64,000 nucleotides of DNA from positions 1,116,001 to 1,180,000 of the forward strand of contig NC_091670.1 in assembly GCF_042453785.1 (NCBI RefSeq), in the 5' to 3' direction. A model generated the notes under the pieces. The model ran no database searches. It was not told where the DNA came from and saw only the letters and a program-made list of their open reading frames with translations. Below, in pieces: positions 10,764 to 54,065 of the stretch. This stretch comes from Malus domestica (lineage: Eukaryota; Streptophyta; Magnoliopsida; Rosales; Rosaceae). Position 1 is the first letter of the stretch; each line of letters opens with the position of its first letter. The position numbers and the translations under genes were made by a program.

Positions 10764-11477
10764 ATTGTGCCTAGACCTGGCAGTTTTTGACACGACACAG
10801 TGACACGATACGAAAATAACATGAAAATAACGGGTTTCGGGTCAACACGATAACTTATTAGGTCATTATCGGGTGACCCGTTAAGAACCCATTAATAACG
10901 GGTTCTTAACAGGTATACATGCGAGTAACACGTGGGTAACCAGTTTCGACCCGTTAAGAAAAAAATTATTTTAATAATTTTAAAGTTTAATTACTAAAAG
11001 ATTTATTATAAAATACAATAGTCATATTAATATATACAATATATTCTATATTAAATATATAGTTTTGTATTATTGTTCTATATAAATTATAAAAAAATTT
11101 AAAAAAAAGTTTTAGTCATTATTTATTTTTATTATGAGAGTTCCTTATTATCATTACTAAGATAAATTTTACATACCATATTCTTGTCCAAAATTAAAAT
11201 ATACTAGTATAGTATTTGTATATGCAAGAACTAAGAAGACATACATACAAGTATGAAAAATGTGAAAGAATATATAAACACTCGTGATTTATCATCATTC
11301 CTCCACGAATAGATCATTGTTACACTTATATTATCGTTTAGATTTTTAAAATCCTTCAAACCCTCATGAATAATGTTTTTTATTTGAGGGAAAAATTAAT
11401 AAAATTAATAATAATTATTGTAGAAGTGTAAAAAATGTAAAAATATATATATACAATCACTCATATATAAAAAAAAT

Positions 11478-14131
11478 GTAAATGCTTTAAATTAAAGATC
11501 AAATTTATTCATTACATTCTTATAAGGTCGAGGAGTGTATATGTACAAAATCATCAAAATCGAAGCTAAAATAACCGTTAAATTGTGATTTTTCGTTTAT
11601 AACCGTCAACAACTTTTGTTCCGTTACGTAATCTCTGAATGTTTGTTTTTTACAATTTTTTACGTTTGCAATCTCGGAATGTGTACAAATAAGTTTGACG
11701 GTTTGATCGTTGAAAAAAGTTTCGTAGAATGCATATTGCATCAAAACGGTATATTAAACAAACACTTAGGGTTAATATTATACTTCTATTAAGTATAAAA
11801 TAAGTTTTTGTGGTATCCACTAGTGTAAATACTTTAAATTAAAGATCAATTTATTCATTACATTCTTATAGGGTCGAGGAGTGTATTTGTAAAAAATCAT
11901 CAAAATCGGAGCTTAAATAACCGTTAAATTGTGATTTTTCGTTTATAACCGTCAAAATCTTTTGTTCCGTTACGTAATCTCTGAATGTTTGTTTTTTATG
12001 ATTTTTTACGTATGCGATCTCGGAATGTCTACAAATAAGTTTGACGGTTGGATCGTTGAAAAAAGTTTTGTAGAATGCATATTGCGTCAAAACAGTAGAT
12101 TAAACAAACACTTAGAGTTAATTTTATACTTCTATTAAGTATAAAATAAGTTTTTGTGGTATCCACTAGTGTAAATACTTTAAATTAAAGATCAAATGTA
12201 TTCATTACATTCTTATATGGTCGAGGAGTGTATCTGTAAAAAAATCATCAAAATCGGAGTTAAAATAACCGTTAAATTGTGATTTTTCGTTTATAACCGT
12301 CGAAAACTTTTGTTCCGTTACATAATCTCTGAATGTTTGTTTTTTACGATTTTTTACGTGTGCAATCTCGAAATGTGTACAAATAAGTTTGAGAGTTGGA
12401 TCGTTGAAAAAAGTTTCGTAGAATGCATATTGAGTCAAAATAGTAGATTAAACAAACACTTAAAGTTAATATTATACTTCAATTAAGTATAAAAAAACAC
12501 TAGTGTAAATACTTTAAATTAAAGATCAAATTTATTCATTACATTCTTATAGGGTCAAGGAGTGTATCTGTAAAAAAATCATCAAAATCGGAGCTCAAAT
12601 AATCGTTAAATTTTGATTTTTCGTTTATAATCGTCGAAAACTTTTGTTCCGTTACGTAATCTCTGAATGTTTGTTTTTTATGATTTTTTACGTATGCGAT
12701 CTCAGAATGTGTAAAAATAAGTTTGACGGTTGGATCGTTGAAAAAAGTTTTGTAGAATGCATATTGCGTCAAAACAGTAGATTAAACAAACACTTAAGAG
12801 TTAATTAATCTATTAAGTATAAAATAAGTTTTTGTGGTATCCACTAGTGTAAATACTTTAAATTAAAGATCAAATTTATTCATTACATTCTTATAGGTCG
12901 AGGAGTCTATCTGTAAAAAATCATCAAAATCGGAGATAAAATAACCGTTAAATTGTGATTTTTCGTTTATAACCGTCAAAAACTTTTGTGCCATTACGTA
13001 ATCTCTGAATGTTTGTTTTTTACGATTTTTTACGTATGTGATCTCGAAATGTGTACAAAAAGTTTGACGGTTGGATCATTAAAAAAAGTTTCGTAGAATC
13101 CATATTGCATCAAAACGGTAGATTAAACAAACACTTAGAGTTAATATTATACTTCTATTAAGTATAAAATAAGTTTTGTGGTATCCATAGTGTAAATACT
13201 TTAAATTAAAGATCAAATTTATTCATTACATTCTTATAGGGTCGAGGAGTGTATATGTAAAAAATCATCAAAATTGGAGCTCAAATAACCGTTAAATTAT
13301 GATTTTTCGTTTATAACCGTCAACAACTTTTGTTACGTTACGTAATCTCTGAATGTTTGTTTTTTATGATTTTTTACGTATGCGATCTCGGAATGTGTAC
13401 AAATAAGTTTGACGGTTGGATCATTGAAAAAAGTTTTGTAGAATGCATATTGCGTCAAAACAGTAGATTAAACAAACACTTAGAGTTAATATTATATTTC
13501 TATTAAGTATAAAATAAGTTTTTGTGGTATCCACTAGTGTAAATACTTTAAATTAAATATCAAATTTATTCATTACATTCTTATAGGTCGAGGAGTCTAT
13601 CTGTAAAAAATCATCAAAATCGGAGATAAAATAACCGTTAAATTATGATTTTTCGTTTACAACCGTCGAAAACTTTTGTTCCGTTACGTAATCTCTGAAT
13701 GTTTGTTTTTTACGGTATTTTACGTATGCGATCTCGGAATGTGTACAAATAAGTTTGACAGTTGGATCGTTGAAAAAAGTTTCGTAGAATGCATATTGCG
13801 TCAAAACGGTAGATTAAACAAACACTTAGAGTTAATATTATACTTCTATTAAGTATAAAATAAGTTTTTGTGGTATCCACTAGTGTAAATACTTTAAATT
13901 AAAGATCAAATTTATTCATTACATTCTTATAGGGTCGAGGAGTGTATCTGTAAAAAATCATCAAAATCGAAGCTAAAATAACCGTTAAATTGTGATTTTT
14001 CGTTTATAACCGTCGATAACTTTTGTTCCGTTACGTAATCTCTGAATGTTTTTTTTTTACAATTTTTTACGTATGCAATCTTGGAATGTGTACAAATACG
14101 TTTGACGGTTGGATCGTTGAAAGAAGTTTTT
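11478..14131. repeat. satellite array, eight ~343-bp units
   Basis: Units begin with GTAAATRCTTTAAATTAAAG at 11,478, 11,825, 12,171, 12,505, 12,849, 13,192, 13,539 and 13,885, spaced 334 to 347 bases apart. The eighth unit is cut at about 14,131 where it runs into GAAGTTTTTGGACAGCC. Landmarks in each unit are GGTCGAGGAGTGTAT, GATTTTTCGTTTATAACCGT, TTACGTAATCTCTGAATGTT and GACGGTTGGATCGTTGAAAA. Copies differ by substitutions and short indels. Four units keep an open minus frame of 74-77 codons over the same bases. It lies wholly within the hAT-like element. Confidence 0.93.
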
Positions 14132-14893
14132 GGACAGCCAGCAATAGATAATTTTGTAGTAGTGAAACCTTAAATTTAGTTAACCGTCGATTGTCATTTA
14201 CGCTTTATTCTTATTACTGAATTTCATTTTTAAAATTTTATTTTTAGAAAACATGATCATCTGCGCGGATGTAAGAAGATGATATCACGTTTCGATATTT
14301 ACGGTTAACTGAAATATGAGTCAATGTCATATAATTTGTAGAAACTTTATAAACATCAAGCAATATTTTCACTAACCATAAAACCCTAAATATAATATCA
14401 ATGATCCAAACCATTCATCTACCTGCACCCTCTAATAGATCATGTTTTCAAAAAAGAAAATCTAAAAAAACGAAATTTGATGAGAACAATGAAGCATAAA
14501 TGTAAACAACAATCAACGGTTAAATTTTGATCTATGATTTATATGATTATAGTGGCGAATTTCGAAGTTAAGCTCTTCATGAAAGTTATAAAACTTGTCA
14601 TTACGAGTGTTTATATATTTTTTTCTATATTTTTTTACACTTCTACATTAATTAAAAAACTATTAAAGACTTTAGGTAAACGAAAATATACTTAAAACAA
14701 AATTGCGTTTTTATGTTTTTGATGTGATAATATGGAATGTATATACTTATTTAGTATTATGTTTTCATTTGATTATTTATTGGTTTAAAATATATTTTCC
14801 TTAACGGGTAACGGGTCGGGTCATATTACCTGTTAATATTATCGGGTCGATTTCGGGTCGGGTCATTTTACCCGTTTATTTTAACAGGTGTTA
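14132..14893. other. hAT-like internal and subterminal sequence
   Basis: AT-rich, ending in GGGTCGGGTC-type subterminal repeats (14,800-14,880). No gene recognised. The TGTTA at 14,889-14,893 is the left duplication of the nested LTR element. Confidence 0.5.
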
Positions 14894-16323
14894 TGATGAG
14901 TAGATTTTATATTATATATTTTACCCTAATCTTTGTATATTTTGGTTAATATTTTGGAAGAATTTTGATACTTTGAATTGTATTTTCAATATAGGACTTT
15001 GGATTTCCTCTGGAGAAAAACAGGACCAAATGGACGAATTTTGGAGTAATTCTAGTTGGAGAACGTTCATGAGTCACTTAGCTTAATCGTATCAAAATTT
15101 TGGATTTTTCCACCAAGCGGTTATTTTCTGGCGATAAAATAAAGAAGCAGTGCGCAGTGCTGGAAAATGGCGTTTTTGGGCTTAAATTGCATTTTTGGAG
15201 CCCAAGATGACCTCGAATGGGTTCGTGGCCTTCTGGAGAAGTGTTCAGAATATTCCAAACATTAAATCCAGCTATATTGGGCCATTTTTGGAGCAGCTTA
15301 TGGGCCAAAACGTGGCTGTTCAGATTTTAGACGAATTTTATCATTTAATTTAGGGTTATGTTTCCTAGGGTTTGTGTGGAGGCTTAGCAGATATATTGCT
15401 TGGCCGTCTACAGTTTTTGGGGACAATATTTTTTTTATGCAATTTTGGAGACAGAGAGAAGTGCTAGGGTTTTGGAGATTTTCTACTTGAAGGTGTTTTC
15501 AATCCTTTTCTTAAGAATATTTTCTATGATTTCAATTATGAGTATGCGTAACTAATTCCTTTTGCTAGGGCGAAGCCTTGAGCCTTAGCATGAATATGTG
15601 ATTTTTATTTAATTGCTTATGATTGATTGCATGCATACTTTGAATTGTTAATCACCGGGATAAAAAGTATCTAATTGCTTTAATGGCTGATCACCATTAG
15701 GATCTTTAGAAAAGTAATTTGATGCAATTTTGGTCAGAAGGTTCCCTGAAATTGACGCTGGCTTCTTGTGATTAATAATTGTAATTTCGCTTAGGATGAA
15801 TATCACGTCTTAAGGATTGCATGGTTTTTCAAAGGATTTTCATAAAGCGTAATGAGTCTTTCATGTTCAGATTTGATCCGAACGTCCGGACGGGTTGCAT
15901 GTTAGATATACGTTATATGTTGGAGGTTCCAAGTAGAATATGAATTAGGAAAATCTAACCTTCAAAGTGGCATGTGTAGATTATAAGTAATTGGTAAAAA
16001 TTCATAGGATTGCTAGGTGATGGTGGAACCCTAGTGTTTTCTTAATTTGATTCTCCCAAAACTGTTTTCTTCTCTCTAGCTCTAATATTGCAGATTGTTT
16101 ATTTTAATTCATTAATTTCGTTTTTATTTTAATTAGGTTATAAAATCAATCACCTAAACTTCTACTTTACAATAATTAAATGGAATCTGATTAGTTTTGA
16201 ATTATTTAATAATCCATGTGGAGACGACCTTGCGAGATCCGTTTATACTACAATAACTTCGTGATTCTTGCAAGTAAAATAGGAGAATTAAGCCCGTTCA
16301 CATGAGTAGTAAAAATCCTATCA
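14894..16323 (+). mobile_element. left LTR (1,430 bp)
   Basis: Starts TGATGAGTAGATTTTATA and ends TAAAAATCCTATCA. Bases 15,231-16,323 are repeated at 31,271-32,363 without length change. The start and the ATCCxTGTGGAGACGACC block near the end are typical of plant gypsy LTRs read in this direction. Confidence 0.88.
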
Positions 16324-16329
16324 AGAAAA

Positions 16330-16364
16330 TGGCGCCGTTGCCGGGGATCGAACCCGGGTCACCC
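16330..16364 (+). promoter_or_regulatory. primer-binding site with 35-nt tRNA-Asp complementarity
   Basis: TGGCGCCGTTGCCGGGGA begins six bases after the left LTR. The match to the complement of plant tRNA-Asp(GUC) continues through TCGAACCCGGGTCACCC, that is CCA end, acceptor strand, T arm and variable loop, to the anticodon stem. Ordinary primer-binding sites match about 18 nt. The tRNA sequence is from memory. Confidence 0.75.
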
Positions 16365-19264
16365 AAGACAACTAGCTAAAACTCAACCATGACAAAACTT
16401 CCACCTTCAAGTTGGCAATCCATAGCAAATTTAAAAAACTAGAACATTTTTTCAAAAGTTCCAACCAATCCCACCACAGAGTCTAAACCATTTAGAATCA
16501 ATTAGAAAGGAATTCACAAACTTCATTTGGTGTAAAGTGAACCACATAGTTAAAGGGACTCGACTAAAACCCTTACCTCTAGTCTTTCTTTATTTCACAC
16601 ATACTAACTTTAAATATAACTCTCTTTCTTTTTTTTCTTTTTCAATTATTTTTTCTCTTTTTTTTTCATATATAACATTTTTTTTTCAATAACAGTAGTG
16701 GTCGTGCAATGTTGGTTCACTTAAGCTTTCGATCCAACCCATGTAGCGAGCTTTAGGTCAATGACACCCAAACCACTAGGGCTTTAGGGCACTAGGTGTA
16801 GAACACCCCTAAGGACTTATTAACTCGAACTGAAAAGGCTACGAAACCAACTAACCATCCTGCCCCATGCCAAAACTCTACCGTTTGACGCGAGAATCAC
16901 TGCTGATTAGGCAGGACTGGCCCGGTTACTAGGCAAAACCTCGGGTGAGACAATTATTACTTTATTCACAATAATAACTGACTTTACTTAAAACAAAAAT
17001 TAAAAATAAACTTAGACTAAAAGCAAGTGTTTCAATCTCACTCCCCACAAACCATGTTGGTGTGATGTGCAAAGTTCAAAGTATAATTCATGAATTAGTG
17101 TCTAAGCAACGATAAATAGAAAAGACTCTACTGTGGGATTAATCTTCACCATGTCCATTTGTTCCAACATTTAAAATAATCTATGGATATTAACTTAAGA
17201 AGAATGAAAATTTTATCCTGACACAAAAATTAAAAAAAACTAAAATTTACTTTCCCACCCCCAAACTTATTTCACACGTTGTCCTCAAGGGTGTGGAAAC
17301 AAAAAGAAAACTAAAAAAACAAAAGAATAAAACACAAAAACTCTAGTGGACACTTTAAAAAAAACGACAACACTATAAGAAGAAATAAAAAAATAACAAA
17401 TAAAATAACAAATAAAATAAAAATCAAAGAAAGAAAAACACCTGGCAAGTATGTCAGCCCACTCGCAAAGGAACATTGGATTCCTTTCTTTGAAAGGCAT
17501 GCAATTGGCATGCCATGTGAAAAGTGGCGTGCAGCTGGCATCAGTCTACTGTCTCTGTCAGTCATCAAACATAGAGCCCAAACGGCTCTCTCCCCTCTCT
17601 TCAAACCCTGTCCTAGGGAAAGAAAAGGTCCATAGGATGCGCCCACTTGTCATGCATCAGAAAGAGAAGGTCCATAGGATTCTAAATCAAGGGTTAAGAT
17701 CAACCCCATATGCCCATCTAACTCTCTCTAGAAAGTCTAAAAATGCTTTTACTCTCTCCATTTCAAAGCAAGTCCTTCTGCCTCCAATTTATTTTTTTCG
17801 CATTTCTCTCGGATCCCATGTCTCTGCTCTCTCTCCTTCATGGCTTCTCAGACCCCATTTCTCTATAAAATAAATAATACCTTTTCCCCCCACATTTTTC
17901 CCTCATTTCCACAGTTGCTTCTTCATATTCGCTAAACGTGGCATCCGTGCTGCAACCAACAGCCCAGCTATCTACACACCTCCGTGTTTCTCGAACACAA
18001 CCATGGTGACAGGAGTGGAAAAACTGATAGGCAGGAAGGTAAATCCCTGCTCAAATCTTGTGGATTTCCTGTTCAGATTTATGTGTTTTAGAGAACTGGA
18101 ACAAAAACTAACACATGCATGTGGTTTTATCAGTGTGACGACCCCTAATGGTTTCAAATCCAAGACAACAACACAAGAACACACCCTGAGTCGCCAGCTC
18201 TGCTCAACCAAGGATCTGCAAATGTTGAGGTAAAACCCGTAACCCTTTCGATGGATTGACGCTTATCTGATATTTGAATAATATAACCACTGATGGGACT
18301 GAAAAATGACACTTAAATCCAGCGTATAACCGAGAGAAAACAAGCTTAAGTTGCCGGTCTAATGGTCCCAGAACGCAAACTAAACGGCAAATGTCTCGAC
18401 CGCTGCAAATCATGAAGGTAAAGATCTCGTTCTTTTGCAGTTGCTAAACTCAACATTTACATGTTCAACGACAGTTCATTATAATGCCATATTTAACCTG
18501 TGTGTACTCATATTTTCGCTCTTTATGAAGGGGTATACGAATCCATGATAGAGCCAAAGAAACAGAAGTAAACACACAAGTTCAATGGATGAAAACAGCA
18601 CAGGCCGCATGACCCAGATCGGTGCATCTGGGAGGTAAAATTCGAATCCCTGCAAGTGTAGTTGTTGTAGATATGGTAATAATAATAGTTGTACTCAGTT
18701 CTGTGGTGTACGGATCTGTGATTTAATTGTGCTTCCTCCATGCATCGCAAAACTGAGCTGCAGAAAATTAACTGCTCTAAATTATGTTTCTGTGCTGGAT
18801 CTGCAACAATCTCCCCCAAACTTGCATCTGTGAATGTCTTGTTATGTTGACTGCTTTAAATTTCCAGCATAGTGTAGATGTGGTTGATGTGAACGTTAGA
18901 CTTGCTGCTGGGTGCAAGATTCCAGCATAGGACGCGCTTTATTTTCCACGTTCGCAACCTGCAATTAACCAATATGCGTATATTAAAAAAGGAGCTAAAA
19001 TCAACATGCGTAAATGAAGAAAGCGACATATTTTTGAATTTTTCATGGTCTTTTTATTTTTTTTGTTTTTGTTTTTGTTTTTGTTTTTTTAGTTTTTTGT
19101 TTTTTGAAAACTTAGGTCTATATATATGCATCTAGAATTTAAACTTATAATAAAAAAAATCAAACAAAAAAAAAAAAATAAGGAAAGAGTTTAGAAAAAT
19201 TGGGTTGCCTCCCAACAAGCGCTTTATTTTAAGTCTGTAACTAGACGTTGCAGAACTCCGGTGG
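16365..19264 (-). other. non-coding 3' part of gag-protease element (read on minus)
   Basis: No protein is recognised. Two phrases common in plant gypsy elements are present on the minus strand: GCGCTTGTTGGGAGGCAACC (19,222-19,203) and TTGAGGACAACGTGTGAAAT followed by AAGTTTGGGGGTGGG (about 17,288-17,252). Both usually lie downstream of gag-pol in the coding direction, so this stretch agrees with the minus-strand reading of gag. Long T- and A-rich runs occur at 16,620-16,690 and 19,045-19,175. Confidence 0.55.
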
Positions 19265-19894
19265 CTAGATCACTGGTGCCTTCAGAGTCAAAGACTCGCT
19301 TTCACCAAATTTCCCTATGCATGGTTTTAGTTGATATTTCTTGACCTTGAGCAAACAACCCCTGCCCAAAATGATGGGTGTTGTCAAATCCTCATCCATG
19401 TCCAACACCATAAAATCAGCTGGTAAATATAAGTTGTCAACCTTCACAATAACATCTTCAATGACTCCTCTAGGATAGGTAATTGAACGGTCAGCCAATT
19501 GAATAATACTGGAGGTTGGCTTCAGCTCTCCTTCACCTAAACGTTTAAAAACAGAATAAGGCATTAAGTTTACACTTGCACCTAAATCAGTTAAAGCACT
19601 TTTAAAATCAGAATTGCCAATAGTACAAGAGATAGTAAAACTCCCTGGATCTTTTTTCTTTGGAGGCAATTTATGCAATAAGACCGCACTGCATTGTTCT
19701 GTTAAAATTACTTTTTCGGAATCCACAAGCTTCTTTTTCTTTGTACAAACGTGCTTCAAAAACTTGGCATAAGATGGAATGTTCTTGATTGCATCAATTA
19801 ATGGAAGATTAATTTGAACTTTAGCCAAAGTCTTCAAGAAATCTGTCAACTGTTGATCTTTAGCTTTAGGCTTCAACCTTTCGGGATAAGGCAT
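19265..19894 (-). pseudogene. gypsy aspartic protease domain
   Basis: An open 209-codon minus frame carries a retropepsin-like domain. A substrate-binding strand segment FTISCTIGNSDFKSALTDLG precedes the active-site triplet as DLGAS, then NLMPYSVFKRLG, QLADRSITYPRG and PADFMVLDMDED. It ends in ILGRGCLLKV where ILGRPFL is usual. In gypsy elements this cleaves the gag-pol polyprotein. Its upstream region (KPKAKDQQLTDFLKTLAKVQ) is the gag-protease linker. The frame stops at 19,265 without a reverse transcriptase. The fold motifs are intact but the polyprotein around it is broken. Confidence 0.85.
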
Positions 19895-21344
19895 AGGAGG
19901 CTCATAACACGTTCTGCAGTTTTTGTGGTAGCTTATGCAGTATTTTCGGATCTGTCTTGGGGCTGCCCAGAATCTGCAGAAATTGCAGAATCTGCAAAAA
20001 TTTCAGATTTAGTTTGGGGATGTTCTGCTGCCCGCGAATTTCCAGCGGATTTTTCATTTCTATTGTAACTTTTGCCAGACCGTAAAGTTCGTATAGCATT
20101 GCATTCTTCTCGTCCTCTTAGATTAGGTACTGTTTGACTAGGAAATGTACCCGGTGCTCTTTCTGAAACCTGCAAAGCAATCTGTCCCATTTGTTTTTCC
20201 ATGTTTTTCATTGCTGCCTGTATATTTTGAATTTCTTGAGTGGTAGTATTTGCCAATTTTTCAATTGCAACCTCCCAAGCAACCTTAGGTGCAGCAGGTT
20301 GCTGTTCCTGCTGTTGAAATTGAGGCCTAGAGTGCTGGTCTTTGTCCCACCTTAGATTTGGCTAATCTTTCAAACCTGGGTTGTAGAAATTAGAATACGG
20401 GTCATATCTAGGACGCTGGAAATTGTTAAATGAATTAACCTGCTCCACTATAAACTCCGGATAAGCATCTTTATGTGGACAACTCAAAAAATCATGATTT
20501 GTCAAGCTGCAAATGCTGCAGGCAGCTTGTAAAGGCTGCTGTACAGCAACCTGTGAACCCGAAATTCTTTGTAATAACATGTCAAATTTTGCATCAAATC
20601 TTTCAAGCTTTTTCTCCATTTTTTCAATTTGTGCCGACACATATGGTGAACCATTAGACATCTCAAAAAAGGATCTAGATTGTGGCTGCTCAACTGCCCA
20701 CTGCTGAGTATCTGCTGCCATTTTTTCAAATAACAAATAAGCCTCTTGTGCATTTTTATCTTTGTACGAACCTCTGCATGAAGCGTTGACAAGAGTTTTT
20801 GTAGTCATATTCAACCCTCTGAAAAATATATGCATTTGATCAGTAGTGTTAATACCTGAGTGTGGACATTTTCTAATCAACTCTTTGAACCGCTCCCACG
20901 CATCATGAAACTCCTCATTTGGCTTTTGGGCAAAAGATAAAATCTGAGTTCTCATGTCAAGAGTCTTAGAAGCCGGATAATGCTTGTTTAAAAATTTTTC
21001 ACTAAGTTGGGCCCAAGTTGTAATGCTTCCAAATGGGAGTGTGAGGAGCCATCTCCTTGCTTGATCTTTTAGAGTATAAGGAAATAAGCGCAGCTTAATA
21101 GATTCGGCTGAAAATCTCCTCACCAAAATGTTTTTGCACCCATTAAAAATTCTGCAATGTGCATGTTAGGATCATCAGATGATAACCCATGAAACGTAGG
21201 TAGAATATTCAACATGTGCTGTTTTATTTCAAATGCAGTCCCTTCCTCCACTGCCGGATAAGTAATGCAACTTGGTATATTTGTGGTATGGGCAATCAGT
21301 GACTCACCCAGAGGCAGACCAGCCTCTGGAATTACAAATGCCAT
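19895..21344 (-). pseudogene. gypsy gag (Athila-like), broken
   Basis: Starting at the ATG at 21,344 (MAFVIPEAG...), the capsid region reads to about 21,121 (AEFLMGAK), loses frame, and resumes at about 21,123 with VRRFSAESIKLRLFPYTLKD, ARRWLLTLPFGSITTWAQLS and PNEEFHDAWERFKELIRKCP. These are hallmark retrotransposon gag segments. A zinc-knuckle-like CSICSLTNHDFLSCP follows. The frame stops at 20,362 and resumes in another frame (TTTQEIQNIQAAMKNMEKQM, then ECNAIRTLRSGKSY) before the protease. At least two frame breaks and one stop show it is not functional. Confidence 0.85.
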
Positions 21345-21425
21345 TTTTTCTTTGCTGTGCAGGTCCCCAGAAAAGAATGATTGCAGAAAAGTCTCCTGCA
21401 GAGGACGAACCCTCTGCAAAGTTTG

Positions 21426-23241
21426 TGAAGGATTTATTTTGAAAAACATGTTCATTTGAATAACATCTATAGCATGCAATTAACAAATTAAAGGCGGAAT
21501 CATGCTTGTATGCATTCAAAAACAAAACATTACCCATGAAATTCAAAGCCTAGTAGATTGGTGAACCAATAATCAACTCAAAACAAAGTGAGTTGAAATT
21601 AATACCTTTGTAGATTCCTCTTTGCATAAGCAAAGGCTAATCACCCAAAGAGATAGGGCCTTCATTCCTTGCTTCTTAGATCCATGGATTTGGATGGAAG
21701 AATAGGTTCTCCAAGTTCCCAAAATTGAGAACCTCTAAGTCTCTTCACCAAGGTTTGATTGTAGAAGAAATGAGTGACCTTGGAGTAGTAGGATTGCTAG
21801 ATGTACCCTCCAAGGTGTTGGCCTCTTTAGAGAGAAAATGGAGAGACAATTCTCACCCATTTTCACCCAAAATAAACCCTTAATCACATTATGAATATTT
21901 GGCTATAAAGTCCTTTATATAGTCCCTTCAAATAAGTGACCTAAAGAACAAAAAACCCTAATTCATCTACATGGCCGGCCTACTTTGGGATTTTTGGGCT
22001 TTTGGGCCTTTGTGAATCTTTATTCATTAAGTTGTCATACATCTTAAGTCAATGGGCTTGACATTCGAAGCCCATTGGGCCTTAAGGTCCAAAATTATCC
22101 CGAGGTCTTTAACGAACTTATTCGTTTGATTAATTAACATATTAATTAATCCTTGCCATAAATAAATGATTAAACCATTTAATCATTCTTACTCATTTCC
22201 GTTTAATCTTCAATCTCCACCTTTTATGGTGTGCGATCCATTAGGTTCCTTTTAGCGAGGCAGTGGGCGATTAAAACCATTTTACATCGATTGTGAATTG
22301 AAACAATTTTCAATTCTCCCTTTAGTGGTTATACACGTATAGGGCTTCCACAAACCATGGTTGACGCCTAGCAGCATGTCATGGTTACCCAAGCTAATCA
22401 GAAGAGGTTAGAGAACCTATTCAGTTCGGGATTACAAGTGCAATACGGTCCTTCTCTAATCTAATACTCTTGACCACATTGTTTGGTATGATAGTTTATT
22501 TACTCATGTCTACTATCCAATGTGAATCGTTTGCTTATATGATTTCCTTGAATGTGATTTGGAACGCATTCCCCAATCTTATTCATACTCTGGCCAGAGA
22601 TTCCAAATCATATCATAGAGTATTCTCCCTCAACTGTTTGAAGGTTAGAGATCCCTTGTTGCGCATTCACTTGTCTCCATAGCTAAGTGGCTTAACCCCA
22701 ACGATGCCGTGACACCCCGAGGGGGTGAATTAGACATAATCAAAGATTAAGGACTTAACCACAAGACAACTGTGATGCCTCAGGTCAAAGGACAACTTTG
22801 CATTATCCCAACCATGAGTTCTCATGTGACATGGAATATAAGAACTCTTCGTTGATCACGTTCAGTGAACTCATTCTCTTATTGAGCACCTACGTACTTG
22901 TCTTGATGTCACACACACCAATGACTCGAGACTAGTCACTCTCCCTGAGAGAAGACACAGTACGTACTGATCTTAACGGACTGTCAATGCCCAATTGGTA
23001 ATCCTATGATCAGGAACATTTAGGATGTGTCTACGAAAGAATGGTCTCATTAATCTAACTTCATTAGATTGCATTCTCCCAATCACATATTCCTTGGACT
23101 TTATCGTTTAAGCATATAACATTTATATGAGACGGCTCAAACAATAATCTTTGCCCTTTATATGTTAAACTAGATTAGTTTAACATTTGAAATGTCCGTA
23201 AAGTATCATCATATGATTGGTTTTAGGGCACATTTCCAACA
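21426..23241 (-). mobile_element. copia-like element LTR (3' LTR in element orientation)
   Basis: On plus it starts TGAAGGATTTATTTTG and ends GCACATTTCCAACA. A TATA box ACTATATAAAGGA is read on the minus strand near 21,923, which agrees with the minus orientation. Confidence 0.93.
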
Positions 23242-23261
23242 ATCTCCCACTTGCACTAGAG

Positions 23262-23520
23262 CCAATCAGCATTGGTCATCAGTGATGATACCTCTTCTGT
23301 AGTCATTTCATAAATGGCTGAAAAGTAGGCCTAGACAATGGATATCTATATGTTATCCATAGAAGCAACGTTGAGAATATCGACTTCACCATTATACATG
23401 ATTCTCAATCATGAGGTTCAGTCTCTCATTTGTGTTCGGATCTTGATGAGCCCTTGATTCCCAGGCTTGAGCTATCGCCCCATTAGTGTCATACACTTTC
23501 TGGTTGGAACCGTATAGAGA
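23262..23520 (-). pseudogene. copia RNase H C-terminal remnant
   Basis: Minus-strand reading gives KVYDTNGAIAQAWESRAHQD and, after a frame change, NGEVDILNVASMDNI, interrupted by stops, ending NADWL before the polypurine tract. This matches the end of copia pol (DNxGAIAxAxEPRxH..., GDVxxxKVASxxNxADPxTK). Stops and frame shifts make it dead. Confidence 0.7.
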
Positions 23521-25999
23521 GTTCATAAATGAACTTTCCCATCCAAACAACATTGTTGTAAACTTCTATATGGCAATATATCTTGCATTCATAATGGAAC
23601 ACACTAAAGTCATTACTTTAATGTTTCCATCCAAATATCTCTTTAGTCATAATAAAGAGATATCTGTTTATTTCTTCATTCGTAATGAAGAAACATCCAA
23701 TGATGGATTAGATTCATAATCTAATACATTTACGCTTCCATTACGTTACTCTAATTCTTCCTCGATCTTTGAGGAATTTATCCTTTAGTATTTCTTAAAT
23801 ACTTAAGGACTCACTTGACAGTTGCCATGGTTCTGATCCTGGGCTTGTATTGATATCGTCTTGTACCGTTCTCGGTACAACTCATATCAATGTTTTTCAT
23901 ACAATATGAAATACATAAATCCCCTTTCTGTTTACGCATAAAGGATTCTATTTACGCATTATTTCTTTGGGAGTCAACAACTTCTTAGTCTTACTAGAAT
24001 TGTCCATTTGATTGAAGTTTATCATCATATGAGAAACTTCCCAGCATCTCTTGTCTATTATTGGGGATTGATACAATCCAATTATATCCTAAAATCTATC
24101 AATATAGATTTCATTCCCATGTATATAGACTATATCTCCCATATACATTCTATCGTTTATAGAATGCTTAAAGTCATAACTTTAACGAAGAAGAATTCAT
24201 TTCATTTCCAAAATTAATATATCATATATATTTTAAATTTTAGGAACATGATTAACTCCCACTAATCTTTTGTAAAACTCGTAAACAAAAGATTCATTTA
24301 CATCTTGATGAGAAATCAAACGATTTGATTCTTTTTCCTCATAAAATGCAAATAGCTCCCACTAACTTGCTAAGATCCATGATGGATGGATCTCTACAAC
24401 TTACATGTCTTGTGATTTATAGTTTTGGACATATATTATCAAGACTATCTTAATAATGGTTTCGGAAACCCATATTATGTCAAAACATTGAATCACCATT
24501 TTAGTTGTAGCTAGCAATCTTCGAATTAATTGAAACCAAGCCTACCTCAAAGATGGTTTCTTCAAAGTCAACCATTCTCTTTGATTGTAGTTACCTTAAG
24601 CTACCAATTAGCTATGAAGGTTTTATTATTTCGAGTCAAATGGTACTTTACCATTTCCTTGAGCATGTATCATATATACACTCAATGTAGTCATAAGGAT
24701 TTTCATTCTTATTTCTTTCGAATTAAGAGGTGCAACTCTATGACATAGTCATAAAGTTCAAACCATTCAACTGAGACGGTTTATAAATCCTTCTTGACTA
24801 CCTTGGAGCTTAAGGTATAGGAACTAGGTTGTTATATTTGTTGATTACTTTCTTGTCTCTCAAAGAACCCATTCTTCGAGTTCTATCTCTCGTTCATTTG
24901 CTTTTAGGCAAATCACATTGTAGAATTACAATGAACTACCCAACAAAACAACATTTGTTAGTTGGTTTATAGAAGCGATATCCAAAAGTTAATTTAAGGA
25001 TATCCTACAAGATTGTTATCAAACAAATATTGCTTATTAGCACACAACCTCAAATCTTAACATGCTTAAGATTTGTCTTTCTTTCCAACTACATCTTATG
25101 GAGTTATGAAAATTTTGGAAGATCTTCTAATTGACAATTATATTGTTTTTAGAAGTATATATCCTATATATGGGTAATAGATAACATCTAACGAACTAAA
25201 TCTTATTTGAGTTCGTTCTTCTCCTAATGGAGAAATACATTATCTTATGATGCTATTTTCCTTGATATCTTTCAAGGAAACTCATCTAAAGTGTTACCTT
25301 TCCTTGGATCAAATCTAAGGAGGTAAATACTTTAGATATCTTACTCATCTATTTACATTTCTTGAATTCTTTGAAACCTTTTGCAAAGTATTCGGACTTG
25401 TGTTTATTCAAAATAAACTATAGTCCAACCGAGAGTGATCTTCGGTGAATGTCATATAACATGAGTAGTATTATGTTGTGGACAAGTGCCACTAACATCT
25501 AAGTGAATTAACCTCAACAACTTTGTGATTCTTTCTTCTTTCCAAAAGAATAAAGATTCGAACATTTCGCCTCCATACAATTTTAACAAGAAGGTATTGG
25601 ATCCGGATCTAACGATCCAAAGCGTCCATCTATGACCAACTCGTAATTTATGTTTTTAGAGGTATCACAACTTTAGTTGGGATTAGTCACTACCTTGCAA
25701 CCTTTTGGGTTTTAAGCATCATTATTTTCTAAACAGTTAACACTACCATATTATCTCTACTATAGAGACAATCAATTAGATTACTATAATCCAATTTCTT
25801 TGGTAGTTCATATGAGGAAGTAAGTACTATCTGCTTTCGCAGAGATCTATATCTTATTCACGTTCCGTATGTGAAGCACCTTTTCTTCTCTCATATATCT
25901 TCTACTTCTTATTAGTCACACTTTTACAACGATTTGTAAAACATAGTTACTAATACGGAATCATACATTCAAGTAGAAGAACCAACTGTTTTGAACTAT
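23521..25999 (-). other. decayed copia interior
   Basis: AT-rich and stop-filled on both strands. CTCCCACT/AGTGGGAG-type phrases recur (24,256, 24,356). It probably derives from pol, but I could not read further domains with confidence. Confidence 0.45.
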
Positions 26000-26266
26000 T
26001 CAAGAACAATTTACAACACCTTCGAAAGGTGTGTTCTTGACACTTGCAAGACATTTCTTGCAAATACCCCTTCCAATTTCCATCCTTTCATAAAGAAAGT
26101 TTGTTCCCTTGGAGTTATTTATCTTCTTTATTTGACTTTCACCTTTGACTACATTAGTCATGGTCCCTAAACTCCCACTATCTCTCTTGAAACCCTTTTC
26201 AATTGTGTTATACACATCAAACAATTTGGAGAGTATGTGGTTATTGTTCACTACATAGTTTACCAT
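26000..26266 (-). pseudogene. copia gag zinc-knuckle remnant
   Basis: An 88-codon minus frame reads VNYVVNNNHILSKLFDVYNT at its start, resembling the VNYNMN...LxELxxMLxxAE segment of copia gag. It ends IGRGICKKCLASVKNT, resembling the GHWKRNCKKYLASLKN knuckle. The cysteines and histidine of the knuckle are partly lost. The call rests on two short similarities. Confidence 0.45.
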
Positions 26267-27028
26267 AAACTTAGTGAACCATTAGGATAGGGAAACAAAG
26301 GTAAAGTCCTTGCCTAGTTTCCGTCTCGTTAAGTGGTTTAACACTTCAACACTCAATGATTCAAAATCATCATAAGTCCATGTTAATGGACTATTTTTGT
26401 CAACCAACCATTATGTTCTAAACATAATTACAAACTTTCAAGAGTTGTACAAGGCAACTCTCATTTCTTCATACAACATTTGGAAGTGAAGAATCATGGC
26501 ACATTAAGTGTCCAAGCCTTTGTGCTTTCTTCTCAAGTTCCTTGTTCATGTAACAAAGAAACAAGCACTAAGTGTTTGCATTGATTAAGGGTTGTTCAAA
26601 GCAACTCTTATTTCTTCATACAACAATTTGTAATTGAAGAATTATGACATTAAAAGTGTTGTCCTCTTTATGATAGACCTATTCTAACATATTCTTCTAA
26701 TGATACATTATCAATAGGAAGATTGTGAGGATGAGACTACTTAGGTACATTTACAAGCCATTAAAGACAATCTATGGTTTTGTAGTACCAAGTCCGTAAA
26801 CTAAACGTTCGGCTTTTATTTGTCAAGTGTTGGATAACGTTTGCAAATATATTGGTAAACAAATACATAACGAATATAAATTGATTGATTTTAAGCCATT
26901 TGATTCGGGTCTTTAAATCAAATAGCATCACCCACTATTTTTGGCAAATTCCATATCCCTCATTGGAATTCGAGAGTTTTGGATGAAACTCTTAGTAGGT
27001 TATGGGAGGCTCACTATTACCAAGCCCA

Positions 27029-27244
27029 CCTCAGAATTATATCATGTTGGCTAGCGTTAATGATAATGAGAGAGTACGCTTACTCATTTGCAACTAATGC
27101 AAGTACCCATCTTATTTGGCCTCTAGAGAATGATTGCCTCAGAATTATATCATGTTGGCTCCATTGCACTTAGTTAAGTCATTTCCACCATGCTTAGTTC
27201 ATGTAGGGGTTCAAGCATAGCCTCAGAATTATATCATGTTGGCT
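27029..27244 (+). repeat. 24-bp motif in triplicate
   Basis: CCTCAGAATTATATCATGTT followed by GGCT occurs exactly at 27,029, 27,137 and 27,221, with unrelated sequence of 84 and 60 bases between. Identity of the three copies in an otherwise decayed interior is notable. Confidence 0.9.
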
Positions 27245-28543
27245 AAACTCGTTGCCTACACTCACCTCATCATATGCGTATAGACTCTTCCTGAGTATAA
27301 GCATGCACTTTGTACTTCCCCATTATAGGGTGAAGGCGGTGTACAAGTCATAAACGATTGGAGCCTACCACGGTGGAAGGCCACGAAAGAGTGTTCAAAG
27401 CACTCTCACGCTTTCAACTTAATATTGGGTTGGTTGAGGGTTTTAGGTCTCATCATATATCAATATACATTTTAATCTCTATTAAAACAATTTTGGTCCT
27501 ATTACAACTATTGGTCCATATGATTGTTTTAGTTGTACATAATACTCCCACTATGCTTTTAAAACGGTTTTTAAAGCAAGAGTATATGTTACTACTAACA
27601 TAAGGTTTGCATTCATTTAATGGACTATATAGTTGCCTTAGGGCCTTAGGATGACTATGAACCTTTGTTTAGATTCAACACGAGCCTTGTGTTGAATCTC
27701 GGTCTAGGGATGGAGATTGATTTTAGTTACGCGTTTAATCACATTAAGGCGTGTTGTCTTAGGGGCGTTGGACCCAATTACTTCATTTTCATGCATATCA
27801 TATAAAGCAAGAAAGAAATACTTCAAAGTAAAGGATGAGCTTATGCTCATTACAACATTTGCATAAAACAAATTACCTTAAAGTAAAGAAGGACTTATGC
27901 CCTTTTACAACATTTGATTAAATCAAATTACAACCAAAATCTAATCTACACATTCCCATGGTTCAAACAAATTTGAAACGCCTTTCACATAGCTCAATTA
28001 TATTAGGCTTAGGTTCATAATCATCCTTTAATTAATTAACGCTTTAACTAATTAATTGAATGCAACATTTTCATTTGGTTTTTGTATCCATAAAATTGAT
28101 TTAAGTGGAGCTAAACAAAATGAAAATCCAATTCTCATTTAAAGAGACAAAACAATTTTGTTCTCATCCTATTTGGGCCATCATGCAATAACCACAACTT
28201 TTTGGGCCATATTGCGAAAACATAAACTTTTGGGGTCACTTTGTAAAAACACAAAAGTCACTACTTCATGTAAATACAACTAGAACCCAAAATTTAAATA
28301 AATTCAAAAACTTCATTAAAGGAGCAAAACAATTTGTCCTTTAGCGTTTTTAGGCCTTAACGTCAAAACGTAAACTTTCGGGTCAAAGTACAAATACACA
28401 AAAGTATCAAAACTTTATGTAATTGCATAAAAGCCCCAAAAATACCCTATTTTATTAGGGTGGCCGGTTTTTAGGGATAAAAATGAGTGATGGGTGTTTT
28501 GATTTATTAGTTTTGTCAAAAACAATCAAGTAGTGCTTTCACC

Positions 28544-28692
28544 TTTCATAAAAATAATATATGTTTTGATGATTGATGTTTCCATCATCATTTATTCAAA
28601 TATTTAACACTTTAAATACTTTCATAAAATTAATATATGTTTTGATGATTGATGTTTCCATCATCATTTATTCAAATATTTAACACTTTAAA
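28544..28692 (+). repeat. 76-bp tandem duplication
   Basis: The block TTTCATAAAAATAATATATG through CACTTTAAATAC is followed directly by a second copy with one substitution. Confidence 0.9.
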
Positions 28693-29191
28693 TACATGAT
28701 AAATCATTTGAAAAACATATAACATAAACTTTATGAAATATTCAAAACTTTGAATCAAAACACAAAACCTTTTTGTTCTTGGCAAGAACATCAAGAACAA
28801 TGAAGAACATCCATGAAAACCCATAAGAGCTCCATGAATGTTTTCAAGCCATAAAACTCAAATTTTCACCATTCAAAATGGTGTTAACATCCTAGGGTAC
28901 TTAGGGGTTCCAAAAGTCACCTTAAAACATTTTTAACAAGACAAACATGAACCCAAAAAATCACCCTTTGGATTTGGCCGAAAATCCCAAAAATCATGGC
29001 ACCAAATTTTAGCTCCAATATTCATCCTCATATGAACTACATCTACAACATTTGAGATGGCAAATTTTCAAACAAAATTTACATTCAAAGAAGCAAGAAT
29101 AAAGCTTGTAACAATTACAACTTTTAAATCATAAACTTATGAACTACAAAACCCAAAAGGATTCACCAACTACTAGACCTACTAGACCTAG

Positions 29192-29203
29192 GCTCTGATA
29201 CCA
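29192..29203 (-). promoter_or_regulatory. copia primer-binding site (tRNA-iMet)
   Basis: Minus-strand TGGTATCAGAGC lies two bases after the 5' LTR. This is the standard initiator-Met complement of plant copia elements. Confidence 0.88.
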
Positions 29204-29205
29204 CT

Positions 29206-31021
29206 TGAAGGATTTATTTTGAAAAACATGTTCATTTGAATAACATCTATAGCATGCAATTAACAAATTAAAGGCGGAATCATGCTTGTATGCATTCAAA
29301 AACAAAACATTACCCATGAAATTCAAAGCCTAGTAGATTGGTGAACCAATAATCAACTCAAAACAAAGTGAGTTGAAATTAATACCTTTGTAGATTCCTC
29401 TTTGCATAAGCAAAGGCTAATCACCCAAAGAGATAGGGCCTTCATTCCTTGCTTCTTAGATCCATGGATTTGGATGGAAGAATAGGTTCTCCAAGTTCCC
29501 AAAATTGAGAACCTCTAAGTCTCTTCACCAAGGTTTGATTGTAGAAGAAATGAGTGACCTTGGAGTAGTAGGATTGCTAGATGTACCCTCCAAGGTGTTG
29601 GCCTCTTTAGAGAGAAAATGGAGAGACAATTCTCACCCATTTTCACCCAAAATAAACCCTTAATCACATTATGAATATTTGGCTATAAAGTCCTTTATAT
29701 AGTCCCTTCAAATAAGTGACCTAAAGAACAAAAAACCCTAATTCATCTACATGGCCGGCCTACTTTGGGATTTTTGGGCTTTTGGGCCTTTGTGAATCTT
29801 TATTCATTAAGTTGTCATACATCTTAAGTCAATGGGCTTGACATTCGAAGCCCATTGGGCCTTAAGGTCCAAAATTATCCCGAGGTCTTTAACGAACTTA
29901 TTCGTTTGATTAATTAACATATTAATTAATCCTTGCCATAAATAAATGATTAAACCATTTAATCATTCTTACTCATTTCCGTTTAATCTTCAATCTCCAC
30001 CTTTTATGGTGTGCGATCCATTAGGTTCCTTTTAGCGAGGCAGTGGGCGATTAAAACCATTTTACATCGATTGTGAATTGAAACAATTTTCAATTCTCCC
30101 TTTAGTGGTTATACACGTATAGGGCTTCCACAAACCATGGTTGACGCCTAGCAGCATGTCATGGTTACCCAAGCTAATCAGAAGAGGTTAGAGAACCTAT
30201 TCAGTTCGGGATTACAAATGCAATACGGTCCTTCTCTAATCTAATACTCTTGACCACATTGTTTGGTATGATAGTTTATTTACTCATGTCTACTATCCAA
30301 TGTGAATCGTTTGCTTATATGATTTCCTTGAATGTGATTTGGAACGCATTCCCCAATCTTATTCATACTCTGGCCAGAGATTCCAAATCATATCATAGAG
30401 TATTCTCCCTCAACTGTTTGAAGGTTAGAGATCCCTTGTTGCGCATTCACTTGTCTCCATAGCTAAGTGGCTTAACCCCAACGATGCCGTGACACCCCGA
30501 GGGGGTGAATTAGACATAATCAAAGATTAAGGACTTAACCACAAGACAACTGTGATGCCTCAGGTCAAAGGACAACTTTGCATTATCCCAACCATGAGTT
30601 CTCATGTGACATGGAATATAAGAACTCTTCGTTGATCACGTTCAGTGAACTCATTCTCTTATTGAGCACCTACGTACTTGTCTTGATGTCACACACACCA
30701 ATGACTCGAGACTAGTCACTCTCCCTGAGAGAAGACACAGTACGTACTGATCTTAACGGACTGTCAATGCCCAATTGGTAATCCTATGATCAGGAACATT
30801 TATGATGTGTCTACGAAAGAATGGTCTCATTAATCTAACTTCATTAGATTGCATTCTCCCAATCACATATTCCTTGGACTTTATCGTTTAAGCATATAAC
30901 ATTTATATGAGACGGCTCAAACAATAATCTTTGCCCTTTATATGTTAAACTAGATTAGTTTAACATTTGAAATGTCCGTAAAGTATCATCATATGATTGG
31001 TTTTAGGGCACATTTCCAACA
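29206..31021 (-). mobile_element. copia-like element LTR (5' LTR in element orientation)
   Basis: Same length as the left copy. By eye only two substitutions: ACAAATG against ACAAGTG at about 30,217, and TATGATG against TAGGATG at about 30,803. Confidence 0.93.
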
Positions 31022-31249
31022 GTTTGCTCCCTGCGATTCCTCCGTAAATTCTACTCAAGTTCTGGATCAAGTGGAATCAATTTCTGCACTGTTGAACGGG
31101 TGCTGACCATGCACAGATTTCTGAGATCTGCACTGCCGTACTGTTGTAATCTGTAAAAATAAAATAAAAACGAAAATTAATTTTTTTTTATATGTATGAA
31201 CAGCAATAACTAATTGAAAATCTGATTAGTATGGATTATTTTAAATAAT

Positions 31250-31266
31250 CCCCGGCAACGGCGCCA
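31250..31266 (-). promoter_or_regulatory. second, inverted tRNA-Asp primer-binding site
   Basis: Minus-strand TGGCGCCGTTGCCGGGG lies directly inside the truncated right LTR and upstream of gag in the gag direction. After GGGGAT it diverges from the left site. The adjoining plus-strand bases 31,203-31,249 resemble LTR bases 16,171-16,214. Confidence 0.8.
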
Positions 31267-31270
31267 TTTT

Positions 31271-32363
31271 TTCTGGAGAAGTGTTCAGAATATTCTAAAC
31301 ATTAAATCCAGCTATATTGGGCCAGTTTTGGAGCAGCTTATGGGCCAAAACGTGGCTGTTCAGATTTTAGACGAATTTTATCATTTAATTTAGGGTTATG
31401 TTTCCTAGGGTTTGTGTGGAGGCTTAGCAGATATATTGCTTGGCCGTCTACAGTTTTTGGGGACAACATTTTTTTTATGCAATTTTGGAGACAGAGAGAA
31501 GTGCTAGGGTTTTGGAGATTTTCTACTTGAAGGTGTTTTCAATCATTTTCTTAAGAATATTTTCTATGATTTCAATTATGAGTATGCGTAACTAATTCCT
31601 TTTGCTAGGGCGAAGCCTTGAGCCTTAGCATGAATATGTGATTTTTATTTAATTGTTTATGATTGATTGCATGCATACTTTGAATTGTTAATCACCGGGA
31701 TAAAAAGTATCTAATGATTTTAATGCCTGATCACCATTAGGATTTTTAGAAAAGTAATTTGATGCAATTTTGGTCGGAAGGTTCCCTGAAATTGACGCTG
31801 GCTTCTTGTGATTAATAATTGTAATTTCGCTTAGGATGAATATCACGTCTTAAGGATTGCATGGTTTTTCAAAGGATTTTCATAAAGCGTAATGAGTCTT
31901 TCATGTTCAGATTTGATCCGAACGTCCGGACGGGTTGCATGTTAGATATACGTTATATGTTGGAGGTTCCAAGTAGAATATGAATTAGGAAAATCTAACC
32001 TTCAAAGTGGCATGTGTAGATTATAAGTAATTGATAAAAATTCATAGGATTGCTAGGTGATGGTGGAACCCTAGTGTTTTCTTAATTTGATTCTCCCAAA
32101 ACTGTTTTCTTCTCTCTAGCTCTAATATTGCAGATTGTTTATTTTAATTCATTAATTTCGTTTTTATTTTAATTAGGTTATAAAATCAATCACCTAAACT
32201 TCTACTTTACAATAATTAAATGGAATCTGATTAGTTTTGAATTATTTAATAATCCCTGTGGAGACGACCTTGCGAGATCCGTTTATACTACAATAACCTT
32301 GTGATTCTTGCAAGTAAAATAGGAGATTTAAGCTCGTTCACATGAGTAGTAAAAATCCTATCA
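31271..32363 (+). mobile_element. right LTR, lacking its first 337 bp
   Basis: Aligns without gaps to 15,231-16,323 of the left LTR. The portion 14,894-15,230 is missing and replaced by the inverted primer-binding site. The outer end TAAAAATCCTATCA is intact and is followed by TGTTA. Confidence 0.88.
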
Positions 32364-32455
32364 TGTTACACGACACGACCCGTTAAGATATCGGGTATGA
32401 CACAAAAACGACACGAACACGGAAAACACGACACGAATGCCAGGTCTATTGTGCC

Positions 32456-36787: not shown

Positions 36788-37388
36788 CTACTTGAAATGA
36801 GGGATTCCAAACATATTGGCGAAGCCGGCCAATGTACCCTTCAATCTACCACTTCCACTAGGTCCTTCTCCGTCACCATCGCTACTGGATTGGGTCGCTA
36901 TTTCATCCAACTCTTCCACAGCGCTCTCGTACACAACGTCCAACTCTTCCACATCACTCTCGTACACCAAACGAGTGCCGCAACTCTTCACCAAGCAGGG
37001 GCCTGAGCTTTTGAAATTAAATTTTAACTGATTGCAACTGTTTTGCCACTCTGTACCAAAGCTTATACCACGAGACACATAGAGTAGCCAGATATGATCT
37101 GACACGGGCTGGACATCCGAAGATAGTAGAGGCGCAGGGTACTCTTCCTTTCCATTGACTTCCAAAACACCAGAGAGCTCCCATCCGCTCCCACAAACTT
37201 TAAATACAGCGCACAGAGCATATCCCATCCACTTGTTATCACGCCATTGCGGAGTTAGGTCGACGGTTACTTCTGGTCCCATCCTTTGATGAGTGAACCA
37301 CCCAGGAATTTCCTTTCCAGGCATGACAATTTCATATCTATCTCCTGCATAAGGGACTCCCTGTACAGGTGAAACAGTGATGTCAAGC

Positions 37389-37435
<47 letters not shown>

Positions 37436-41404: not shown

Positions 41405-41889
41405 TGAAACAAGCTAACTGGATACGGTGGCATAGCAGCAATTAATATGGTATTAGTTTTTCAAGCAATCATCATAAAATTATTTGCAAAAACATGAATA
41501 TATAAATTGACTTGTGACCAGAAAAACAATTCAGCATTCATAAAATTATATTAGGCAATAACATGAATCAGAAAGATGAGCAATAACCTGGGTGTATGTA
41601 GAAAACGAAGTCACAGATCAAGTCAGAGGGGTCATGAGAGGAGCTGAAGATCCGTCAGAAAAAAGGAAACACTGTCTCTGTGTACTTGCTACAAGTCTCT
41701 CTGTATGTCGTCGTCAACGAAACTTCACCGCGTAAGCTTGATGGACGTGATTCAACTGCTTCTTCTATCCGACGGTCAAACCGCGTAAGCTCTATTTTCC
41801 CTCTTTTTTATTTTTATTTTTTATTTTATTCGTTTGGTGAACTGTAAGCTCCATTATTTTATTTTTGCGTGGCTCCATTATTATTTTTT

Positions 41890-53315: not shown

Positions 53316-54065
53316 CTTTAATAGTCCCCACCAGTAATTACTAATCAGATACCAGCGGATTGAACTCAGAGCTGGATATTCGGATTTGAGAAGAAACAAG
53401 AATTACATGATAGGACCGAAACAAAATACGTATCCTGGACAGCGTACTAACAGATACTTAATAACTATCAGTAAACAGCTACTGAACCAAAACTCAGATC
53501 AGTAAAAAATATGGAAACACTTCATCTGACATTAAAACGAAATGGAAAATGAACCATACCAACAGATTAGTAATCTTAAATTAGTACGAATTTACGAAAA
53601 CAGCATCGGAATTAGAAATTTCATGACCAAATTTAACATATCTAGCATCTATATACTACATAATCCATGAAAAATTTGAAATAATGGAAGCTAAAAGAAT
53701 CAAAACAGATAAATGTGTCCAAATATTAAATTTTGTTCTTCCGAATTTGACAACACAACAGATGAGATTAGAATTACATTTACAGCTGCAAATATATATA
53801 CAACAAACAGAAAACAGAAGCAATTCAGCAATTCAGCAACACAGCGAAGCTCAACTCAGAGCAGATTAGAAATCAAACCCTAAACTAGAAATGGAGAAAT
53901 ACCTTTTGTGGGTAACGGGTTACGTCGTCGGAATGGAAGGCGCCTAGGAAGAACTGAGGAAGAAGAAGAAGATAGGAAGGGCGGAAGAAACTGATTCAGA
54001 CGACAAGTTCCACTTGAGAAAGGGTTTAAGAGGGGGACTGCGGGAGGAGAGCTGCTGGGTTTACG
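53316..54065 (-). other. 5' UTR and leader intron of RH47
   Basis: On the minus strand a donor-like ACAAAAG|GTATTTC at about 53,902 follows a G/A-rich exon (about 54,065-53,903). Acceptor candidates lie near 53,350-53,375. It is read as a non-coding first exon and intron. Confidence 0.5.

Follow-up and report, generated by a model that had tools for sequence, protein, structure and literature searches.

An inverted retrotransposon interior and an extended tRNA-Asp complement in Malus domestica are consistent with a malformed second strand transfer

In a 64,000-nucleotide stretch of the Malus domestica genome (NCBI RefSeq assembly GCF_042453785.1, contig NC_091670.1, positions 1,116,001 to 1,180,000; hereafter the window), positions 14894-32363 hold a long terminal repeat (LTR) retrotransposon, the outer element, whose two LTRs share one orientation but enclose an inverted interior. 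We conclude that this element is probably a single integrated complementary DNA (cDNA) of Ty3/gypsy type, Athila-like, that was malformed at the second strand transfer of reverse transcription. An earlier note on this DNA, made from the sequence alone, had proposed an aberrant reverse-transcription product in which strong-stop DNA was joined to an inverted interior, and this proposal is the best fit to the anatomy given the 17-nt tRNA-Asp scar at one joint and the collinear relatives described below, although it stands as inference and not as proof. The tRNA-Asp primer site and the long LTRs are Athila-like traits, and the provisional label Athila is taken from that site and the look of the proteins.

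The outer unit has the two LTRs, TG..CA outer ends and 5-bp target duplication (TGTTA on both flanks) expected of an LTR retrotransposon (Table 1), and the duplication together with the TG..CA ends points to a single integrase event. This bears out the earlier view that the LTRs are direct repeats and that the unit integrated as a whole, and the right LTR does lack its first 337 bp, being truncated on its inner side. The interior, however, departs from the usual plan of one primer-binding site (PBS) and a collinear internal region, as the two inward-facing tRNA-Asp sites noticed earlier are both present, with the same 18 nt, and the interior between them is inverted. As a nested element occupies 21426-31021, the interior of the outer element amounts only to 16324-21425 and 31027-31270.

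The normal arrangement of the family was established by searching the 651-Mb assembly (19 contigs) with an LTR-end/PBS query, where 40 of 225 candidates were scored, namely the outer element and 39 other copies. The order LTR, spacer, PBS and leader was collinear in 38 of these 39, in agreement with the earlier expectation of a collinear family with one primer site. The leader ran in the same direction in 34 of the 35 copies that could be read by script and likewise in the other four, each of which has one primer-site change, while gag with the same orientation was present in the sequence fetched for 29 of the 35 and for the four others; in five collinear copies it was not seen in the sequence fetched. 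The single non-collinear copy, L025 (G000:C14:28350611-28353911, minus strand), carries the 18-nt site followed by inverted U3 (positions 218 to 22), with a GGA overlap at the switch and a 120-bp duplication of the flank that contains one mismatch; no ordinary 5-bp duplication was found at its flanks. We consider L025 likely to derive from self-primed strong-stop DNA, judging from its arrangement.

For comparison at the 3' side, the downstream stretches of seven relatives were fetched. In six of the seven, homology to the inverted interior stops at 16366-16368, 75-77 bp short of the 3' LTR, the tail of L012 being the one that deviates; by this alignment the inverted interior extends from the spacer almost to the 3' LTR. 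The interval equivalent to 19365-19298 measures ~3.2 kb in five of the seven relatives versus ~66 bp in the outer element (~0.47 kb in L010, no match in L015). A domain search revealed reverse transcriptase (RT), RNase H and integrase in the ~3.2-kb stretch of L012, and RT and RNase H in that of L009, the only part of L009 searched. The outer element is thus without pol, and it is in the relative L012 that RT and RNase H precede integrase in the order of Ty3/gypsy elements. Compared with Athila-like Ty3/gypsy elements in general, the family copies agree in gag-protease, the tRNA-Asp site and, as seen for L012, the position of RT-RNase H ahead of integrase, whereas the outer element differs in its lack of pol, its inverted interior and its 35 nt of tRNA complement.

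This tRNA complement lies at the left joint, J1. Positions 16330-16364 are an exact 35-nt complement of tRNA-Asp, comprising the 18-nt site and 17 nt more, so that the U5 end and spacer are followed by tRNA complement that continues past the primer site and beyond the position of 1-methyladenosine 58 (m1A58). By the tRNA numbering we assume, the 18-nt site itself stops just before m1A58. The reference for the match was the complement at locus L050, where ARAGORN calls a tRNA-Asp. In the 39 other family copies the tRNA complement ends at nt 19 (37 copies) or nt 18 (2 copies), and none of them has the 17-nt extension. On the sense strand the joint reads GTTGTCT-T-GGGTGACCC in the outer element, with GTTGTCTAG in four of six relatives and GTTGTTTAG in two of six. 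The 17 extra nt are best fitted, from their position and identity, as the residue of an over-extended strong-stop end. Conceivably, their source was instead a tRNA-Asp gene in the chromosome, copied in by recombination or by repair synthesis once the element had integrated, the inversion arising in the same repair; the primer site and the 3' terminus of every tRNA-Asp gene have 15 nt in common, and a switch during repair could occur there. We consider this extremely unlikely, as the extension sits exactly at the strong-stop DNA end, the same start recurs behind other LTR ends, and no flanking tRNA-gene sequence stands at the joint, where the interior comes next. ARAGORN found no tRNA gene in the window.

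At the right joint, J2, the inverted PBS is followed by a remnant of the spacer, which could be read in 38 of the 39 copies given for comparison and is AGAAAA in 37 of them and ATAAAA in one. The U3 near position 338 is CCTTCTGG, or a variant differing by one or two bases, in the 45 rows compared and TTCTGG in the outer element, and J2 itself reads CCA-TTTTTT-CTGG. The AGAA microhomology reported earlier at this joint therefore holds in that TTCT is shared, but two extra T are present; TTCT shared with two T added and a blunt join of TTTT to TTCT would account for the letters equally well.

The two LTRs differ at 17 positions over 1093 bp (98.4% identity) and are each other's nearest relatives, since identity to other copies does not exceed 94.3% among the 40 rows longer than 900 bp and reaches 95% in shorter rows; they also share 14 rare or private states. 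Six of the differences are private to the left LTR and six to the right (state in at most 1 of 50 compared rows), while five segregate in the family. A full-length left LTR beside a truncated right one is not what ordinary copying of a rearranged parent would leave, because such copying equalises the LTRs.

From the demonstrated anatomy, collinear relatives, tRNA complement and normal outer ends with their duplication, we infer an order of steps and the enzymes that would have taken part. Synthesis of plus-strand strong-stop DNA would have proceeded normally from U3 to the end of U5 and across the spacer, but in the tRNA-Asp primer RT would have continued beyond m1A58, so that 35 nt were copied where 18 are usual. 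The over-extended 3' end would have been unusable in the normal way at the primer site and, with one extra base, would have been joined in inverted polarity to the interior at a point 75-77 nt short of the 3'-LTR end, so that the interior would read minus-sense and finish at its own primer site and spacer. This second natural 3' end, the primer site plus TTTT, would then have been linked to a further LTR copy at U3 position 338. As the product would have begun with U3 and finished with U5 just as a normal element does, integrase could have inserted it with the 5-bp duplication. Joining may have occurred by template switching in the particle or by host alternative end joining. Followed along the plus strand, both joints leave from natural 3' ends of RT intermediates, strong-stop/tRNA at J1 and PBS/spacer at J2.

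Several points weigh against this account. It requires two aberrant joints in a single molecule, and the presence of m1A58 on the host-plant tRNA-Asp is assumed. Because the TGG that complements CCA lies within the element's own primer site, it does not by itself show whether a tRNA or a tRNA gene was the template, and because microhomology at J1 and J2 is little or absent, a guided strand switch is not demonstrated. Moreover, 5 of the 17 LTR differences occur in several other copies, so that the two LTRs may have originated from two RNAs or two cDNAs.

The earlier note had allowed that the interior might be a separate element inserted with its own duplication. This is correct for 21426-31021, which is flanked by GTTTG, but not for the inversion, and a separate insertion of the whole interior was rejected since the only duplication of its own is that of 21426-31021. 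A related possibility is that a second family element was inserted inversely into the first and then lost its LTRs, together with part of the host element, through two deletions. Nesting is common, and 21426-31021 is indeed nested; the inverted interior, however, has neither a second LTR pair nor a second duplication, and one deletion would have had to stop at the boundary between spacer and PBS and the other at the stretch of exact tRNA complement, whose 35 nt also speak against such a history. We judge this alternative to be highly improbable.

To place the extension of the outer element beside others, a pattern of the 18-nt site plus 7 further nt was searched for across the whole genome, with a control. 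This revealed at least 10 places, all on the forward strand and one of them the outer element, with none on the reverse strand and none in the control; as a 10:0 split between strands is odd, we take 10 as a lower bound. ARAGORN called a tRNA-Asp at 6 of the 10 loci. The nine other scars, seven of which were examined within 3-kb loci only, adjoin U5-like ends that by eye are of three kinds, none of them of the outer element's family. Exact runs of tRNA-Asp complement measured 34 nt (L048), 49 nt (L053), 55 nt (L056), 72 nt (L054 and L057), 74 nt (L055) and 75 nt (L050), and L051 and L052 carry 75 nt with three and four mismatches. The U5-like end was shown to belong to an LTR by a second direct copy in L050 and L056 and by inverted copies in L053 and L054; for the other loci its LTR nature was taken from likeness to these four or from the site alone.

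What follows the scar varies. In L056 it is leader-like sequence and interior in direct orientation, and in L050 the same after repeats of the U5 end and primer site; L055 repeats ~240 bp of U5 and a primer-like site, and L057 repeats U5. An inverted LTR follows in L053 and, past a U5 repeat, in L054, while L048, L051 and L052 continue into sequence without assigned type. At the switch point of L054 and L057 the tRNA end and U5 share an 11-base likeness, CTATACTACAA, and these two loci may have a common origin. L050, with LTRs ~99.9% alike (one mismatch in 770 bp and one in 1495 bp), was rejected as a clean example, as its left LTR starts with TT and not TG and its flanking five bases are ATCCT versus CTCCC. 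We therefore used L056, which is complete, with an LTR of ~2133 bp, the duplication CTTCC and arms 99.3% (1495 bp) and 99.7% (698 bp) alike. L053 and L054 form palindromes of LTR, tRNA complement and inverted LTR with arms 71% and 92.6% alike, respectively, the latter between 275-bp direct repeats that are 98% alike. A snap-back origin of L053 was rejected, since arms just 71% alike make descent from a single molecule hardly possible.

Direct-orientation arrangements with a tRNA extension thus exist in this genome (L050, L055 and L056), and end-joining inversions do occur in plant genomes. The outer element could accordingly have arisen in two steps, the first being the integration of a collinear copy that, like L050, had a second primer site and a left LTR extended by tRNA sequence, and the second a later genomic inversion of its interior with the loss of ~413 bp at the right break. 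This would require the left break to coincide exactly with the reverse-transcription joint and the right break to fall within the same element, and 0 of the 39 examined family copies are collinear with the extension; we consider such a course unlikely. The joints could also be repeat collapse or chimeric reads, as the family is repetitive and the joints are known from one assembly, but the duplication agrees on both sides, the J1 extension has a biological explanation and comparable extensions lie on other contigs, which makes an assembly error very unlikely.

Together with the favoured origin of the outer element as a malformed cDNA, these loci lead us to a broader proposal, which we hold tentatively and regard as finely balanced: in Malus domestica, reverse transcriptases of several Ty3-type families may repeatedly read beyond m1A58 when they copy tRNA-Asp, in many cases as far as its 5' end, and the ill-fitting ends of the strong-stop DNA may be joined by microhomology or end joining to the nearby leader, their own U5, or an inverted LTR or interior. 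If so, second strand transfers that failed would have left a record in the chromosomes that can still be read. Scarred copies could be counted in sequenced plant genomes and could inform on the frequency of the event, the reach of RT into the tRNA and the rescue of a bad end. They are also a warning for annotation, as what looks like a tRNA-Asp gene located behind a U5 end, with its CCA encoded, can be a scar of reverse transcription.

To our knowledge, the fate of over-extended strong-stop DNA is known mainly from HIV-1. There, according to one review, strong-stop products that reach the tRNA's far end fail in the second transfer (PMC13191261). That system resembles ours in that the primer tRNA is copied past m1A58, and differs in that it concerns an intermediate studied in vitro and in cells, whereas the outer element is a sequence fixed in a plant chromosome (PMC13191261). 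Alternative end joining, according to another review, mediates second strand transfer via microhomology at the primer site (PMC12786077). In the yeast elements Ty1 and Ty3, which share the strong-stop transfer step of the LTR-retrotransposon cycle, inheritance of the element's own primer site is reportedly strict, and sequence of the primer tRNA is reportedly not passed on in Ty1 (Lauermann and Boeke, as cited in PMC7472051 and PMC5371799), in contrast to the outer element, which retained tRNA sequence past the primer site. The record proposed for Malus domestica, if real, would likewise contrast with these yeast elements, where second transfer reportedly leaves no tRNA sequence. Template switching between the R regions of two RNAs has been described for complex elements of the Triticeae, which have three LTRs and two cores (Sabot and Schulman 2007; PMC1950507). 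Like the outer element, these are malformed cDNAs integrated as a unit with a duplication and outer LTRs that are much alike; unlike it, they have neither an inversion nor a tRNA copy in their description (PMC1950507). Instead of an internal third LTR and two complete cores, 14894-32363 holds two family LTRs. Beyond the papers cited, the titles and abstract openings listed in literature searches on template switching, strong-stop DNA and inverted or tRNA-bearing LTR insertions yielded no integrated long primer-tRNA copy or inverted interior.

Table 1. Features of the outer element and of the element nested in it (positions in the window).
Feature	Position	Strand	Basis or remark
Target-site duplication TGTTA, left	14889-14893	.	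sequence identity with right copy
Left LTR, full length 1430 bp, TG..CA	14894-16323	+	homologous to LTRs in other family copies
Spacer AGAAAA, LTR to primer site	16324-16329	+	identical in 37/38 readable copies
tRNA-Asp primer-binding site, 18 nt	16330-16347	+	sequence
tRNA-Asp complement, 17 further nt (putative over-extension scar)	16348-16364	+	matches L050 tRNA-Asp complement
Left joint J1, 1 base without match to either side	16365	.	alignment to relatives
Inverted interior: gag, protease, non-coding 3' part, no pol	16366-21425	-	homology to 6/7 fetched relatives
gag-protease frames, broken	19265-21344	-	frame changes ~21120-21165 and 19933-20002; in-frame stop 20362
Nested element duplication GTTTG, left	21421-21425	.	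sequence
Nested later LTR element, outside the inversion	21426-31021	-	own LTR pair and own duplication
Nested element LTRs	21426-23241 and 29206-31021	-	1816 bp, 2 differences
Nested element duplication GTTTG, right	31022-31026	.	sequence
Inverted leader	31027-31248	-	matches leader in 34/35 relatives compared, best 95.9%
Second tRNA-Asp primer-binding site, inward facing, same 18 nt	31249-31266	-	sequence
AAAA remnant of spacer, right joint J2	31267-31270	-	family spacer comparison
Right LTR, positions 338-1430 only, 1093 bp	31271-32363	+	same orientation as left LTR
Target-site duplication TGTTA, right	32364-32368	.	sequence identity with left copy

Of the gag-protease said earlier to read on the minus strand, gag is clear (PF03732, E 2.7e-21), whereas the aspartyl protease is weak, its PF13650 match of 21.2 bits falling under the Pfam cut-off of 24.3. 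An Rfam match to snoR71 (51 bits, 20854-20958, plus strand) lies antisense within the gag frame, and either the Rfam family includes retrotransposon sequence or the likeness is due to chance.

The nested element is young, and it does not account for the inversion of the outer interior. Its primer site, on the minus strand just below 29205, is one we take to be initiator-Met-like. The longest stop-free stretch in its 6-kb interior is 93 codons, and in the lack of a long reading frame it is probably non-autonomous. At a substitution rate of 1.3e-8 per site per year, the LTR differences would place the insertions at about 0.6 (outer) and 0.04 (nested) million years ago, the former being an upper estimate if the two outer LTRs had different templates.

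The leader next to the primer site (31200-31251) resembles, in inverted form, a U5 stretch at LTR positions 1277-1322, with a score of 48 versus a maximum of 33 in 300 shuffles; the best score on the opposite strand was 38, elsewhere in the LTR. In RNA the two stretches could pair into a stem around the primer site. Immediately to the left of the outer element lies a tandem array with a period of ~346 bp (11466-14130). Elsewhere in the window, frames resembling a TIR-NBS-LRR resistance-type gene and a DEAD-box RNA helicase, named from their translations, are found at 36788-41413 and 51666-53402, both on the minus strand.

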